Shown here: piece after piece, positions 6,023 to 24,517 of the stretch
Layout of the letters: every line of letters begins with the position of its first letter
How positions within the stretch are numbered: the first letter of the stretch is position 1
IMG/VR virus record: IMGVR_UViG_3300006793_000195
Span: 1 to 28,601 of that record
Length of the DNA stretch: 28,601 nucleotides
DNA from: a virus
Direction: 5' to 3' (one strand)
The notes under the pieces: generated by a model
Databases searched by the model: none
The model's input: only the letters and a program-made list of their open reading frames with translations
What the model was told of the DNA's origin: nothing
Position numbers and translations under genes: made by a program

Positions 6023-6802
6023 CTACCTTGCTGCGCCAGTTTGGTCATAAACAAAACTTCCATTACGGACAGCCTCTTTTATGGCCTCTTCGTTCTTAAT
6101 GAAATCTGCGTCTGACATAGATGCGATCTGACTTTCAGAAAATGCGCCACGTTGGTTTGTACTAGGGGCAGAACTAGATGTACGCCCTACTGCCTGTGCG
6201 GCTGACCTACTCTTACTCTTACGCTTGCCTGTATCCGCTTTATAAAGATCAATGGCACGGGAAGCTTCAACAGCGTTAGTGTTGTTTTTATACAAAGCAT
6301 CTTGAATGTACTGTGGCTGCATAGCTACCCATTCGTGAAAGGAAGAATCCTGCCGAATGTCATGGAAATCAGGATGCATCTTAACAAGTTGTTGTTCAGC
6401 TTCTTTGCGGGTGAGCTTGTGTTCAAGCTGCTTTAGCCCTGCCATCCGCTTCTCGCCCTCTTCCAGAGCCTCGTTTGCACGTTTTCGAGCAATTGAATCA
6501 ACAATTTTAGCAACGTCAGGGTATTTCTTTGACCACTGGTCAATCTCTTCATCAGTTTTAGGGAATTTAATTTGCCCCTTTGCGGCCTGTTCAAGTTGCG
6601 CCTTCATTTGAGCGACTTCTTGATCCTTTTGCTGCATCAATTGGTGAGAGTGCCGACGAAGATCTCCGTACCGTTTTTTGTACGTTGCATCTTCCGCATC
6701 AACTGGCTCGGGGCCACCTGACTGAACCTCTTGTTCTTTTGCTAACTCCTCGGAGTAAGAAAGACCATTATCGTCTTCATCTAAACGTCTATATTTTGCC
6801 AT
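6023..6802 (-). CDS. Capsid assembly scaffolding protein
   Basis: A 259-aa, highly charged, mostly helical protein with coiled-coil regions (around residues 40-75 and 95-145), a Ser/Ala-rich basic linker (SKSRSAAQAVGRTSSSAP, around 195-212) and a short C-terminal helix (SMSDADFIKNEEAIKEAVRNG). Scaffolding proteins of podoviruses show this organisation; the C-terminal helix binds the capsid protein and the protein leaves the mature head. It lies immediately upstream of the capsid gene, as in T7-like and related phages. The start is ATG with an AGAGG ribosome site. There is no sequence motif for catalysis. Confidence 0.8.
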   Translation of the reverse strand: MAKYRRLDEDDNGLSYSEELAKEQEVQSGGPEPVDAEDATYKKRYGDLRRHSHQLMQQKDQEVAQMKAQLEQAAKGQIKFPKTDEEIDQWSKKYPDVAKIVDSIARKRANEALEEGEKRMAGLKQLEHKLTRKEAEQQLVKMHPDFHDIRQDSSFHEWVAMQPQYIQDALYKNNTNAVEASRAIDLYKADTGKRKSKSRSAAQAVGRTSSSAPSTNQRGAFSESQIASMSDADFIKNEEAIKEAVRNGSFVYDQTGAAR

Positions 6803-15531: not shown

Positions 15532-15966
15532 CTATGTATTACGAATACCCGCTATGCAGTCCGTAGCCTTCTCAACAGATACCTTAAACCATTCACCTCT
15601 ACGATCAGAGGATATTACATCTAAAAGCTTATGAGCCATAGATTCATCCTTACGCCTATCCTCAGACGATACCGCACAATGCAGGACATAATCCCTAAGA
15701 GGGCTAGAAGTCTGATAGCTACTGCACCTATCATTAGCATCAATAGCCATACCTACCTTAACCCATTCGGGCCAAGCAGGATTAGAGATTACATAAACGT
15801 AACCTTCTTTCGTAGAAGGTAAGTTTTCAAAACTAGAGAATGCAGCGTCATTAAAACTCTTATAACGACCAGGTTTATGAAGTGGATGAGAGAATGATAT
15901 ATACTTACCGTCCACCCACATACGACTGCGGTTATGTGCGTCTTTTAAAGCACCCTTAAACGGCAT
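15532..15966 (-). CDS. GIY-YIG family (T5orf172-like) nuclease
   Basis: A 144-aa protein with a C-terminal GIY-YIG-type domain: GYVYVISNP (55-63), WVKVGMA (69-74), R80, E108, H112 and GEWFKV (124-129). The Y-V-Y, K-V-G, Arg, H-x-L and GEWF order is characteristic of the T5orf172 branch of GIY-YIG nucleases, often stand-alone phage endonucleases or fused to DNA-binding domains. The first 50 residues carry MWVDGKYISFSHPLHKPGRY, which may contact DNA. It could be a homing-type or host-DNA-degrading enzyme. Its ATG overlaps the stop of the upstream gene by one base, so the two are co-translated. Confidence 0.75.
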   Translation of the reverse strand: MPFKGALKDAHNRSRMWVDGKYISFSHPLHKPGRYKSFNDAAFSSFENLPSTKEGYVYVISNPAWPEWVKVGMAIDANDRCSSYQTSSPLRDYVLHCAVSSEDRRKDESMAHKLLDVISSDRRGEWFKVSVEKATDCIAGIRNT

Positions 15967-17207: not shown

Positions 17208-17421
17208 CGGCTGACTCCCCTTGCTCTAAATTATGGTCTAAATGCGGGGCCTGATTATATAGAGTCCCTGCAATTATATTGATAGCATCCGGGGCCTCGT
17301 AAACCCCATAGCGTTCAAAAAACCCGGCCCCTAACTTAAAACAGGTTTTCGCTATTAGGTCGGTGTTGTCGATAGAGTTAACCCTAGTTTCCTCTAATAC
17401 GTTTTTTATTTGTTCAAACAT
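17200..17421 (-). CDS. 73-aa protein of unknown function
   Basis: A mainly helical protein (MFEQIKNVLEETRVNSIDNT, LIAKTCFKLGAGFFERYG, APDAINIIAGTLYNQAP). Its ATG overlaps the stop of the upstream gene (TAATG), and its end overlaps the next start by 8 nt. No family is recognised. Coupled translation suggests that the three small proteins at 17019-17618 work together or are made in equal amounts. Confidence 0.6.
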   Translation of the reverse strand: MFEQIKNVLEETRVNSIDNTDLIAKTCFKLGAGFFERYGVYEAPDAINIIAGTLYNQAPHLDHNLEQGESADV

Positions 17422-17618
17422 TACACCCGCCCCCGCAATGCTTTTGGTTTTTTGTTTAACCGTTTAGTTTTTGGCTTGCTGGTATTAACTACGGTTAAAT
17501 CGTGGGTGATGATCCGGGGGGCTTTCTTTCCCATTGCCCCGAATTTTTTGGATTTAGCTTGACCGCTTGTGTTCGTGGTTTTCATTATGCCGTTTGGTTT
17601 TAGGGTTACGCTTTTCAT
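17421..17618 (-). CDS. 65-aa strongly basic protein
   Basis: A Lys/Arg-rich protein without hydrophobic core segments (SGQAKSKKFGAMGKKAPRII, PKTKRLNKKPKALRGRV), probably disordered and nucleic-acid binding. It starts at an ATG preceded by the island leader cassette with an AAAGGA ribosome site. An internal Met (residue 12) is an alternative start, but the leader distance favours the first. It resembles the basic mini-proteins of the late cluster in composition only. Confidence 0.6.
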   Translation of the reverse strand: MKSVTLKPNGIMKTTNTSGQAKSKKFGAMGKKAPRIITHDLTVVNTSKPKTKRLNKKPKALRGRV

Positions 17619-17670
17619 TTTGTTTGGTCCTTTTGTTTAGCTAGTAAGCCCCCCAGGCAATCCAGGGGGC
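17619..17670 (-). promoter_or_regulatory. Island leader cassette, copy 4
   Basis: On the minus strand a GC-rich hairpin (17648-17670, GCCCCC/GGGGGC stem) is followed by CTTACTAGCTAAACAAAAGG, then ACCAAACAAA and the ATG at 17618. The block CTAGCTAAACAAAGGACCA is shared with copies before 18622, 19124 and 20006. The remaining 17671-17761 holds only AT-rich sequence and a dubious 20-codon hydrophobic ORF starting at GTG. Confidence 0.75.
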
Positions 17671-17761
17671 GCATTGTTTCAGAATAGAAAGGGGGCGAAT
17701 TGTATTAGGTATAAAATACCAAATAAGGATAAAGCCCCCACCAGGTCGCCTATAAAACCTT

Positions 17762-18622
17762 TCACGCTGCAAAGCTTTCCGCCATGCCAAACAACCCCGC
17801 ATTCAGGCGCACGTTTTCGGTTAGGCTTGTGATTGCTTTTGCTTTGCGTTTAGTCCAAATCGGTTTTGCTTTGGTTTTAGAATAGACCTGAACACCCCCC
17901 CGCAGCACCGACTCTTGCAACCTATTGAATACAGTGTAGCAGTCATTTCCCCCATCCCCTAGGCGGCGAACCTTTAGGGCTTGCTGCATTGTTTCCCACG
18001 TTGTGGCTCTTATCCCGTTTTCGGTCCCTTCCAATTCCTGGGGGGTTGCTACCATATCCCAGCGCATTTTGAGGGCGTCATATGCAAAGTCTAAGCAATC
18101 GTTTGATGATAGGTTACGACTCCGCATTGTCTCAATAGACTCCATCATGGAGTCCAGGTTCTGGACCTGGTGAGTCAAAAGGTTTTCAAATTCCCTTGCG
18201 GTCACTTTGGAATGGCGCAACTTAGCGTCAAACCCTTCCCCTTCTTTGATCAATTGATTGCTACAAACCGCCCTAAAATTGCCCGTCATCAATCGCAGAC
18301 TCGAGCGTTTATTATGGCTGTTAAACAGTACCAGGTTTTTTTGATCCTTTTTCCCGAATTCGGCAGGACGTGCAAAGCTTATCATATGCTCTTGATAGGG
18401 AGTCATTGCCGGGGTTCTGCTAGGTTTTTGAATTGCCTTAGTAGGAACAAACCCATAGTCAGCAAGAATATTGATTGCGGATTCCGTATCAACAAAACCA
18501 TATCGACTCGAGGTATTAGGGCTTGCCGTTTTAGTAAATGCCGCCGGGCATGTTTTGGCTATGTCCTCAAATGTGAGGGCGGTTTGGTCGTTTTGTATTG
18601 TGTGAATTAAATCAAATGGCAT
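17762..18622 (-). CDS. DUF932-like phage/plasmid protein
   Basis: A 286-aa protein resembling DUF932 (phage/plasmid-like) proteins. It has YGFVDTESAINILADYGFVP near the N-terminus, then TPYQEHMISFARP, a core of LVLFNSHNKRSSLRLMTGNF and RAVCSNQLIKEGEGF, and later DCYTVFNRLQESVLRGG. The HDGxxAxxxxxGxFRxVCxNG-like core is the family hallmark, seen here as NSHNKRSSLRLMTGNFRAVC and SNQLI. The biochemical role is unknown; members often sit near replication, recombination or anti-defence genes on mobile elements. It is led by the island cassette. Codon and run composition (frequent GGG/CCC) differs from the flanking phage genes, suggesting transfer. Confidence 0.75.
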   Translation of the reverse strand: MPFDLIHTIQNDQTALTFEDIAKTCPAAFTKTASPNTSSRYGFVDTESAINILADYGFVPTKAIQKPSRTPAMTPYQEHMISFARPAEFGKKDQKNLVLFNSHNKRSSLRLMTGNFRAVCSNQLIKEGEGFDAKLRHSKVTAREFENLLTHQVQNLDSMMESIETMRSRNLSSNDCLDFAYDALKMRWDMVATPQELEGTENGIRATTWETMQQALKVRRLGDGGNDCYTVFNRLQESVLRGGVQVYSKTKAKPIWTKRKAKAITSLTENVRLNAGLFGMAESFAA

Positions 18623-18697
18623 TTTGTGGTCCTTTGTTTAGCTAGGTTTTTGTTGCAATAAGCTGCAACCCAATGCCCCCCAGGAATTGAGGGGGGC
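18623..18697 (-). promoter_or_regulatory. Island leader cassette, copy 3, with two hairpins
   Basis: On the minus strand: a GCCCCCC/GGGGGGC hairpin (18675-18697), a GTTGCA/TGCAAC hairpin (18651-18668) followed by AAAAA, then CCTAGCTAAACAAAGGACCA and the ATG at 18622. The first hairpin may terminate or protect the message of the upstream gene. Confidence 0.75.
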
Positions 18698-18710
18698 TAA
18701 GGGTTAGAGC

Positions 18711-19124
18711 CTAGGCAGGTACAAAGTGATGTGAATCCCGAATGCGTTCTGCTAATGGCATATCAATTTTATTGATCCGGGCGAATTGCTCTGTTAGCCG
18801 ATCCATTTTATTGCAGAGTCTTTCACTATCTTCGCCATATTTTGCGTTAAGGGCTAGGCGGTATGCTTTGGTTGCATCTGTTAGCAAGTCCAGGCGATTC
18901 CAATCGCAATTTTCAATCTTATGAATACGGTCCATAAAATCGGAATGTTTCTTTTTATCGGCGGCAATGCATGCGGCGGATTCTTCAGATATTTGATCAA
19001 GCTTTTTTTGCGTGTGGCGGTCCTGCAAATAGATCGTGACATATGCAAGCAATGCTGCAGTTGCGATGATAACAAAAAGATAAGCTGCAACGAAAAACGG
19101 GTTAGTTAATGTTTCATGTGTCAT
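18711..19124 (-). CDS. Membrane-anchored coiled-coil protein
   Basis: A 137-aa protein with one N-terminal transmembrane helix (around residues 10-33, FFVAAYLFVIIATAALLAYV). A long charged helical region follows (LQDRHTQKKLDQISEES, DRIHKIENCDWNRLD, NKMDRLTEQFARINKID), ending in RIRDSHHFVPA. An N-out or N-in single-pass anchor is likely, with the helical part probably in the cytoplasm. No family is recognised. It is preceded by the island cassette. An alternating Lys/Glu pattern suggests oligomerisation. Confidence 0.65.
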   Translation of the reverse strand: MTHETLTNPFFVAAYLFVIIATAALLAYVTIYLQDRHTQKKLDQISEESAACIAADKKKHSDFMDRIHKIENCDWNRLDLLTDATKAYRLALNAKYGEDSERLCNKMDRLTEQFARINKIDMPLAERIRDSHHFVPA

Positions 19125-19170
19125 TTGTTTGGTCCTTTGTTTAGCTAGTTAGGGGCAAGGTGTAAGCCCC
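19125..19170 (-). promoter_or_regulatory. Island leader cassette, copy 2
   Basis: On the minus strand a GGGGC/GCCCC hairpin (19152-19170) is followed by TAACTAGCTAAACAAAGGAC and CAAACAA before the ATG at 19124. Confidence 0.7.
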
Positions 19171-19224
19171 GCCCCTTAATTGATAACCATGATTCGTAAC
19201 TTAGTAAAGGGTTTTTATTAGGTG

Positions 19225-19299
19225 CTACCCAAAAACAATTGAACCCACCCAAAACCAAACCACCGCAAAACCGACGATATAATAGAGGGCGCTAGGCAT
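19225..19299 (-). CDS. Possible 24-aa transmembrane peptide
   Basis: The ATG overlaps the stop of the Gp88-like gene (TAATG), and the ORF encodes MPSALYYIVGFAVVWFWVGS plus IVFG, essentially one membrane helix. Stop-start overlap favours reinitiation. At this length chance cannot be excluded, so this is a tentative call. Confidence 0.3.
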   Translation of the reverse strand: MPSALYYIVGFAVVWFWVGSIVFG

Positions 19300-20006
19300 T
19301 ATGCCGCCCCCTGAAATTCTAAGGTTTCGGGGTTGTCTATAATAAAGGGACTCTTACTTGCCTGGATTGCTTTCCCCCCCTTTAATTTCAGCCCCACAAT
19401 AACGGGGCCAGAATTTAAATTGATTAAATCTGATTTGTCCCCATCAATCACAATTCTATTTAAAAAGGTTTTTGGCATGCCCCCCCTAAATACCGCCGAT
19501 ATCGGGGCGCTAGTTTTTAGGGCTTTGTTTACCTGGTTTTGATATGCCGGGGCGGCACTATATGAAAACATCAATTTATAGTTTTCGGGGGTTCTGCCTA
19601 ATCGGGCGGCAAGTTTTGTGTAGTCGTAAAATAAAGCCTGGGGAAACATTTGCGGAATCCCGTACTTTTCCCAGGCGATATCCGAAATTGTATTGAGTCG
19701 GAATGCCGCCCGTTTTTGTTGCTTTTCACATTTACGAATGAATGCGGCAATTTCCTTTTTGAGGGTTTCCAGGAATTGCGCTTGATCATCCCTCCATAAA
19801 TCCGATTTTGATTGTCTGGCCCTAGCAACAGAATTCATTTGACCCCGTCCCGCCGATACCAGGCAATCAACAGAACACTGCGCAATATCCCTTGCGGGGC
19901 ATATTATAGCGTTTGGCATTAGGGATAGGCTAGCAATCAAGTAATCTGTACCCGTTTGGGTTTTCAGAATTTTGGTATTACTGGCATTTGTGTTGAGTAG
20001 TTTCAT
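19299..20006 (-). CDS. Gp88-like phage protein with three-Cys motif
   Basis: A 235-aa protein resembling phage 'gene product 88'-type proteins, from memory. A cysteine motif, CPARDIAQCSVDCLVSAGRG (C-x7-C-x3-C), is followed by ARQSKSDLWRDDQAQFLETL, KEIAAFIRKCEKQ, RLNTISDIAWEKYGIPQMFP, FYDYTKLAARLGR and NYKLMFSYSA. The clustered cysteines could hold an iron-sulfur cluster or zinc; the R-x-N and FYDYTK blocks look catalytic. The biochemical activity is not known to me. It is the first gene of the island operon, preceded by cassette copy 1 and a terminator-like hairpin. Confidence 0.65.
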   Translation of the reverse strand: MKLLNTNASNTKILKTQTGTDYLIASLSLMPNAIICPARDIAQCSVDCLVSAGRGQMNSVARARQSKSDLWRDDQAQFLETLKKEIAAFIRKCEKQQKRAAFRLNTISDIAWEKYGIPQMFPQALFYDYTKLAARLGRTPENYKLMFSYSAAPAYQNQVNKALKTSAPISAVFRGGMPKTFLNRIVIDGDKSDLINLNSGPVIVGLKLKGGKAIQASKSPFIIDNPETLEFQGAA

Positions 20007-20059
20007 TTTCTTTGGTCCTTTTGTTTAGCTAGTAAAAAAATCGGGTGGTTAAATCCCGA
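20007..20059 (-). promoter_or_regulatory. Island leader cassette, copy 1, with attenuator-like hairpin
   Basis: On the minus strand a TCGGG/CCCGA stem (20041-20059) is followed by seven U residues, a classic intrinsic terminator. It is immediately followed by ACTAGCTAAACAAAAGGACC and AAAGAAA before the ATG at 20006. There is no room for a promoter between terminator and gene, so expression must come from read-through (attenuation) or from the cassette itself. Confidence 0.7.
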
Positions 20060-20209
20060 CTCTTAATGACCATAACAAAGGTAAATTGATTCGCAATTAT
20101 AAAAACCAAATTTATAATTTTAAAAAATGCTAAGAAAAATTGTCAGAATTTTGTCATAACTGACCATCTAATAAGCAGAAAAATGCTATCGCTATCATAT
20201 CACCTAAGT
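20060..20209. other. AT-rich divergent spacer
   Basis: No gene is present. It contains an operator half-site ACCATAAC (20069-20076), very AT-rich sequence (20095-20130) with a TATAAT-like box on the minus strand near 20097-20102, and TTGTCA repeats near 20140-20157. This is the likely promoter region for the leftward island and the rightward 63-aa gene, and a plausible DNA-unwinding site. Confidence 0.45.
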
Positions 20210-20522: not shown

Positions 20523-20550
20523 ACATTTATACTGATACTTGATTCGCAAC

Positions 20551-20580
20551 AAAAAACCCCCCGACTATAAAACCGGGGGG
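20551..20580 (-). terminator. Strong terminator for leftward transcription
   Basis: CCCCCCG (20557-20563) and CGGGGGG (20574-20580) form a 7-bp stem. Six A residues precede it on the plus strand, giving a U-tract for leftward transcripts. It insulates the integrase region from the leftward genes. Confidence 0.75.
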
Positions 20581-20674
20581 CTGTTCTTACACAGTGAACA
20601 GTGTGAACAGGGAGGATGTTCACGAGCTAAGATTAGCACAATCACTTAACAAAGTGCAAGTAATTATTTTCTTA

Positions 20675-22901: not shown

Positions 22902-22941
22902 AATCCAATGATACTAGTTAAGTTACTGATATCATTGGATT
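22902..22941 (+). terminator. 12-bp inverted repeat after thyX
   Basis: AATCCAATGATA (22902-22913) and TATCATTGGATT (22930-22941) form a perfect 12-bp stem with a 16-nt loop, followed by a short T-rich stretch. It is either a terminator for the integrase-thyX operon or a structural part of attP, since it abuts the tRNA fragment. Confidence 0.55.
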
Positions 22942-22942
22942 T

Positions 22943-22980
22943 TGGTTGCGGGAGTAGGATTTGAACCTACGACCTTCAGG
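22943..22980 (-). other. Probable attP core: 3' part of an initiator-type tRNA gene
   Basis: On the minus strand the sequence reads CCTGA (anticodon stem 3' arm), AGGTC (variable loop), GTAGGTTCAAATCCTAC (T-arm), TCCCGCA (acceptor), A73 and CCA. The 5' half of a tRNA is absent. The combination with A72-A73 and CCTGAAGGTCGTAGG matches alphaproteobacterial tRNA-fMet as I remember it. Homology stops at the anticodon loop, a typical crossover place for tyrosine integrases. Integration here would restore the host tRNA 3' end. Confidence 0.75.
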
Positions 22981-24474: not shown

Positions 24475-24517
24475 GTGATTGTGGCATCACGCTACAGCTA
24501 GCTAGAAAGGGCCAAAC

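Follow-up and report, generated by a model that had tools for sequence, protein, structure and literature searches.

Genes and leaders of the leftward island

The window, by which we mean the whole 28.6-kb stretch of DNA that was analysed (an IMG/VR virus record), comes from an HMO-2011-type podovirus whose terminase shares 74% identity with its counterparts in CRP-235 and CRP-738, two Roseobacter phages. A leftward island (17.0-20.0 kb) is flanked by the integrase and the structural genes; in it, genes coding for a GP88-family protein, a membrane protein, a DUF932 protein and a small basic protein are each preceded by a near-identical leader (Table 1), as a first-pass annotation made from the sequence had indicated. 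This leader, CTAGCTAAACAAA(A)GGACC, occurs in four copies in the window against 0.03 expected from dinucleotide shuffles, and the genes behind it are unrelated. In L066 and L102, relatives of the 65-aa basic protein begin at the equivalent of an ATG internal to the window gene (17585), right behind their own leader.

Tiny conserved ORFs coding for membrane proteins of 24 aa and 28 aa follow the GP88 and DUF932 genes, respectively (19299-19225 and 17765-17679, minus strand). Alignment of the GP88 proteins (A2) revealed four invariant cysteines, C36, C44, C48 and C93, whose conservation suggests a metal or iron-sulphur site.

A related leader had also been proposed upstream of the helicase gene, where it follows a short hairpin. 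Its score (13.5) exceeds the control maximum of 11.0 but is on par with that of one site internal to the primase gene (13.0), and the match taken alone is weak. It is nevertheless kept in four relatives as TAGCTA(n)AAAGG(A/G)CCA, a conservation that supports the proposal.

Several other features surround the island. A 40-bp block identical in many relatives (22941-22980, minus strand) looks like a tRNA gene 3' end (CCTGAAGGTCGTAGGTTCAAATCCTACTCCCGCAACCA) and is a probable attP core. The sequence ACTCGCACGTCA is found exactly twice between the integrase and GP88 genes (20238 and 20495, minus strand) in nearly all related phages, the pair being candidate integrase arm sites or operators. Positions 20549-20625 (minus strand) give a sub-threshold match to the anti-hemB sRNA (28.5 bits, E 0.0009) with a strong terminator at its end, and possibly encode a phage small RNA. 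On the other side, a T5orf172 gene of the GIY-YIG type (15532-15966, minus strand) adjoins the island, and CRP-738 carries a putative endonuclease VII in this region.

Table 1. Positions of leaders, genes, hairpins and promoter-like sites in the window, and of the hammerhead sequences in two related isolates.
Feature	Position	Strand	Remarks
Leader copy 1	20014..20032	-	before ATG 20006
Leader copy 2	19130..19148	-	before ATG 19124
Leader copy 3	18627..18645	-	before ATG 18622
Leader copy 4	17626..17644	-	before ATG 17618
GP88-family gene (PF17338)	19299..20006	-	copy 1 cassette
137-aa membrane-protein gene	18711..19124	-	copy 2 cassette; cassette absent at the equivalent place in L075
DUF932 gene (PF06067)	17762..18622	-	copy 3 cassette
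65-aa basic protein gene	17421..17618	-	copy 4 cassette
Copy 1 promoter-like site	20069..20096	-	TTGCGA-N16-TATGGT (extended -10 TGnTATGGT), upstream of GP88; promoter-like by sequence
Copy 1 hairpin	20036..20064	-	TCGGG[ATTTAACCA]CCCGA
Copy 2 promoter-like site	19180..19208	-	TTTACT-N17-TATCAA, inside conserved CTTTACTAA...CGAATC element
Copy 2 hairpin	19151..19176	-	10 bp, without U-tract
Copy 3 RNA element	18660..18712	-	irregular hairpin of 53 nt; internal loops 1x1 and 3x3
Copy 4 hairpin	17648..17670	-	9 bp, without U-tract; no clear promoter
Helicase hairpin	24475-24490	+	GTGAT..ATCAC, upstream of helicase leader
Helicase-gene related leader	24498-24517	+	CTAGCTAGAAAGGGCCAAAC
Hammerhead_II sequences in CRP-3 and CRP-212	L169 7692-7621, 7045-6970; L170 7461-7396, 6711-6636	-	

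Hairpins, promoter-like sites and the copy 3 RNA

Each of the four leaders follows an RNA hairpin, in agreement with the first-pass annotation. The z values for copies 1 to 4 are -2.3 (p 0.02), -3.3 (p 0.005), -1.7 (p 0.065) and -2.8 (p 0.01), the figure for copy 3 being obtained from a 50-nt segment that truncates the element. Extended to the 63 leader sites of the related phages described below, the analysis detected a significant hairpin at 52% of them, as compared with 4-5% at controls; about half of the leader sites are without one, for example the copy 4 position in L082 and L102. The four hairpins of the window differ among themselves in sequence, size and kind, which had been overlooked.

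Judging from their sequences, copies 1 and 2 would each have a hairpin near the +1 of a sigma-70-like promoter, and copies 3 and 4 appear to have structured RNA upstream of the leader without a clear promoter. The promoter layout of copy 1 is shared by close relatives, its version in L093 being TTGCGC-N16-TAAGGT, and the hairpin at this site has stems that change completely among 13 phages around an invariant T-RACCA loop. The promoter element of site 2 could be aligned at 20 sites among 18 phages and, where readable, combines an element similar to CTTTACTAATGCAGCGAATC with a hexamer of the TATNAA type and a G+C hairpin, the latter being absent from a second copy of the site (L088b). All 14 matches to this element in 187 kb (up to five mismatches) stand before a leader-like start, when by our own estimate about 1-2 would be expected by chance. 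The MAFFT alignment of site 2 is out of register and was left out of the pair counts. The hairpin of site 2 may be shortened, should the predicted +1 lie within its 5' arm, and the predicted fold of copy 2 partly masks the ribosome site (SD unpaired 0.13).

Copy 1 does possess the terminator-like U-tract that had been reported, seven T residues (20040-20034) after a G+C core stem, and true terminators are present nearby at 20582-20555 and 16990-16971. The first-pass annotation had suggested that the hairpins may terminate the preceding gene and are then followed by a ribosome site. As a general function this is not supported, and we now consider it very unlikely: copies 2-4 have no U-tract, that of copy 1 is limited to close relatives and is missing at the same position in L082, L087, L093, L102 and CRP-235, copy 1 is already preceded by a strong terminator, and hammerhead ribozymes, which are found before leaders in other phages (see below), are not terminators.

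The structure preceding leader copy 3 is a new covarying RNA element of about 53 nt. The whole fold has a predicted energy of -31 kcal/mol and ends about 15 nt upstream of the leader. Nine distinct copies were found among eight phages, with 97.2% of cells paired and both sides changed in seven of the 16 pairs; covariation reaches 0.403 against 0.154 in shuffled alignments, none of the 500 shuffles scoring as high. The corresponding model gave 13 forward matches in 825 kb, every one of them followed by a leader and an ATG, ten of the 13 being training sequences or their copies; they precede DUF932 and other genes. An Rfam search of the window returned nothing at the gathering score, leaving the element without an Rfam match. 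Only at copy 3 is there a long irregular intercistronic duplex of the kind seen in RNase III sites, and by analogy it is probably cut by RNase III; the small number of conserved unpaired bases would favour a processing site over a ribozyme. Because an alternative pairing, hpB, is conserved as well, a switch between hpB and the main fold is possible.

Type II hammerheads (RF02276) lie directly upstream of leaders in the Roseobacter phage isolates CRP-3 and CRP-212. Two Hammerhead_II matches exceed the cut-off of 37 (38.4 bits in CRP-212 and 37.2 bits in CRP-3) and two more in these phages fall below it (32.9 and 32.1 bits); the Rfam search of the window gave none at the gathering score. These putative ribozymes lie at a position equivalent to that of the window hairpins and of the copy 3 element. 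The processing site suggested by the first-pass annotation receives indirect support from these hammerheads and from the covarying element.

Leader variants and gene exchange in related phages

A search of IMG/VR for the exact leader retrieved five contigs only, all of them close relatives of the window. As the exact leader is confined to one lineage, leaders were sought through their flanking proteins instead. Queries with GP88 and DUF932, together with profile alignments, yielded a set of 18 phages with comparable islands, window included, so that the pattern that the first-pass annotation had proposed to look for in other phages does exist there; DUF932 and the 137-aa protein used as sole queries gave few loci, and the GP88 search of genome contigs gave no relative. 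In these 18 phages, 63 genes belonging to 26 protein families carry a leader.

Most phages possess a variant particular to the phage or its lineage, such as CTAAACACAAAGGAATTGACCAA in L080 and L066, CTAAACTTGAAAAGGAAATGACCAA in CRP-235 and L068, and GCTAAACCTAGAAAAGG in L090 and L083. Leader similarity is 0.725 for unrelated genes within a genome and 0.624 between genomes, with none of 5000 permutations as extreme; this test ignores the relatedness of the phages, and the safer part is the comparison of orthologues, whose leaders reach a similarity between genomes of 0.624 for GP88 and 0.631 for DUF932. This homogenisation of the leader within each phage had escaped the first reading of the locus. 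CRP-235, CRP-3 and CRP-212 are recorded on one host strain (FZCC0040) and have three different leaders, and the host therefore does not dictate the leader. The complete CRP-235 genome carries it before four island genes only, with scores of 16-24 (controls reach at most 11.5); one additional weak match (14.0) is located upstream of gp07. Genes internal to a cassette overlap the preceding gene with their start and are devoid of a leader. Inspection by eye of HMO-2011 and HTVC115P did not make a uniform leader apparent. The annotated starts of CRP-235 (L055) gp61 and gp57 (52514 and 49946) are probably too early, the leader-based starts being 52451 and 49883, respectively.

Leader similarity could in principle be a by-product of selection on translation, the leaders being plain strong ribosome sites in the start-codon context of the host. 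Their AAGGA is well spaced and GACCA stands ahead of the ATG in most lineages. This explanation is nonetheless largely refuted already, and we rate it as quite improbable, since the leaders still resemble each other over about 10 nt on the upstream side of the ribosome site, those of three phages on a single host strain differ, and so few genes of the complete CRP-235 genome carry one.

Eleven protein families were found immediately downstream of hairpin 2 and its conserved promoter-like site among the 18 phages, which agrees with the modular element proposed earlier. In two comparisons the leader marks the point where homology changes, from which we infer that genes move as cassettes, as had also been proposed. 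In L075, hairpin 2 and its leader are fused to DUF932, where the window carries the 137-aa gene. L076 is window-like up to the end of GP88 and then L102-like at 91.7% identity (6126-6494) over a stretch that runs from the promoter through the hairpin, leader and gene into the next leader; the crossover lies inside the leader, the match to L102 ending at 6494 and the window-type match starting at 6468. Genes of marine HMO-2011-type phages thus appear to have been swapped exactly at leaders, the comparison being neutral as to the direction of events.

Cassette-style exchange, imperfect palindromes and the tyrosine integrase adjoining the island recall the attC sites of integrons. That the units are DNA sites for site-specific cassette recombination is nevertheless extremely improbable: the integrase scores 26 bits against the 220 cut-off of the XerA/integron-type model, hairpin sequences are unlike between sites of one genome, and the units are bound to start codons.

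By analogy with RegA of T4, which targets numerous early mRNAs, a phage-encoded translational regulator that co-evolves with the leaders as its binding sites may also be envisaged, the loop of hairpin 1 serving as a decoy or further site. Such a regulator would fit a uniform, phage-specific leader that overlaps the start region, a loop kept on varying stems before GP88 that resembles the GACCA of the leader, and a fourth cassette encoding a small basic protein. It is however an unlikely explanation, as L076 has a window-type leader at GP88 and L102-type leaders at the next two leader genes, so that mixed leaders are tolerated, and a candidate factor was not found.

Proposed cassette socket and closest known systems

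We regard as fairly probable that the leader units act as a start-associated cassette socket, by which every cassette would obtain an mRNA 5' end to itself. In the early leftward island, such a two-part unit would open any gene or short block that is expressed independently. The downstream half would be a leader of 20-28 nt that includes the ribosome site AAGGA; its sequence is particular to the phage and uniform across the phage's unrelated genes. The upstream half would make the 5' end, either through the putative sigma-70-like promoter with its hairpin (copies 1 and 2) or, at sites without a promoter, through structured RNA, copy 3 probably being cut by RNase III and copy 4 being a simple hairpin; in CRP-3 and CRP-212 the hammerhead ribozymes would supply it. 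The result would be a separate mRNA for each cassette, with a 5' hairpin that may protect and stabilise it, followed by the standard leader. Since the leader is repeated within and between genomes, it would provide short homology for gene swaps by homologous recombination, which in turn would homogenise it. From the first-pass annotation, this keeps the modular, exchanged element, drops the terminator and adds the promoter-like sites of copies 1 and 2, which had been overlooked.

More tentatively, and with some doubt on our part, interchangeable makers of 5' ends joined to one phage-specific leader might form a general socket in which the copy 3 RNA is a new family doing the job of the hammerhead. 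The candidate devices would then be a hammerhead ribozyme, a promoter with a hairpin, and an undescribed RNA that is either RNase III-like or cuts itself, and through the socket early genes would be gained, lost and made into separate mRNAs.

Among known systems, SAS/ESAS of the cluster K mycobacteriophages comes closest, followed by the PeSLs of T4-like phages. SAS is a short ribosome-site sequence just upstream of the starts of many unrelated non-structural genes, ESAS is the subset with an upstream inverted repeat enclosing a SigA-like promoter, the consensus of the repeat varies by subcluster, and their role is still open (PMC3203893, PMC11373665, PMC12699233). The DUF3310 protein of Adephagia has been speculated to act on SAS genes (PMC11373665); gp16 of CRP-235 (L168 4858-5094) is a DUF3310 protein.

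A promoter (putative here), an inverted repeat and a ribosome-site sequence before several unrelated genes are common to SAS/ESAS and to the phages studied here, whereas the sequences, hosts and phage families are all unrelated. Subclusters share a single SAS sequence and the leader varies between phages; ESAS repeats are alike within a genome and the hairpins here are not. Some sites here have a covarying RNA or a hammerhead and no promoter, and breakpoints fall in the leader. The SAS consensus GGGATAGGAGCCC is matched twice at two mismatches, against 0.53 matches expected, and neither match is at a leader. The hairpins of copies 1-4, differing in sequence and size, do not form 17-bp inverted repeats with a common consensus, an ESAS trait.

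PeSLs (promoter early stem-loops), reportedly described by Arbiol in 2010 and Comeau in 2014 (cited in PMC4503421), are small cassettes of a promoter and a stem-loop through which, by recombination between copies, genes of variable regions are shuffled, comparable to the switches of homology seen at leaders in L075 and L076. A terminator function is ascribed to their stem-loops, whereas most hairpins here are without a U-tract. As to the sigma-70-like early promoter of PeSLs, copies 1 and 2 have conserved promoter-like sequences and copies 3 and 4 none that is clear, so that two of the four copies would differ from PeSLs in this respect; each unit here also closes with a uniform leader that contains the ribosome site.

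Intercistronic hammerheads of prophages flank single genes or short blocks of varying identity (PMC3088659, 2011) and were proposed to cut phage transcripts to gene-length mRNAs (PMC3088659). CRP-3 and CRP-212 resemble them in having such ribozymes directly before leaders, unlike the window, which has hairpins or the copy 3 element in that place, then the uniform leader. In T7, RNase III sites are irregular intercistronic hairpins that make mRNA 5' ends, and the gene 10 leader has a 5' hairpin, an A/U-rich stretch and a strong ribosome site; both are alike in layout to the units here without sequence relation, cleavage here being putative. The open-access papers searched contained no precedent for the copy 3 RNA or for such devices combined with a leader specific to the phage.

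The copy 3 element adds a testable RNA that is missing from Rfam, and the leader marks true start codons, as for gp61 and gp57 of CRP-235. These units constitute an independent parallel to SAS/ESAS, and the proposed socket would explain how a small early region takes in unrelated genes and expresses them at once.
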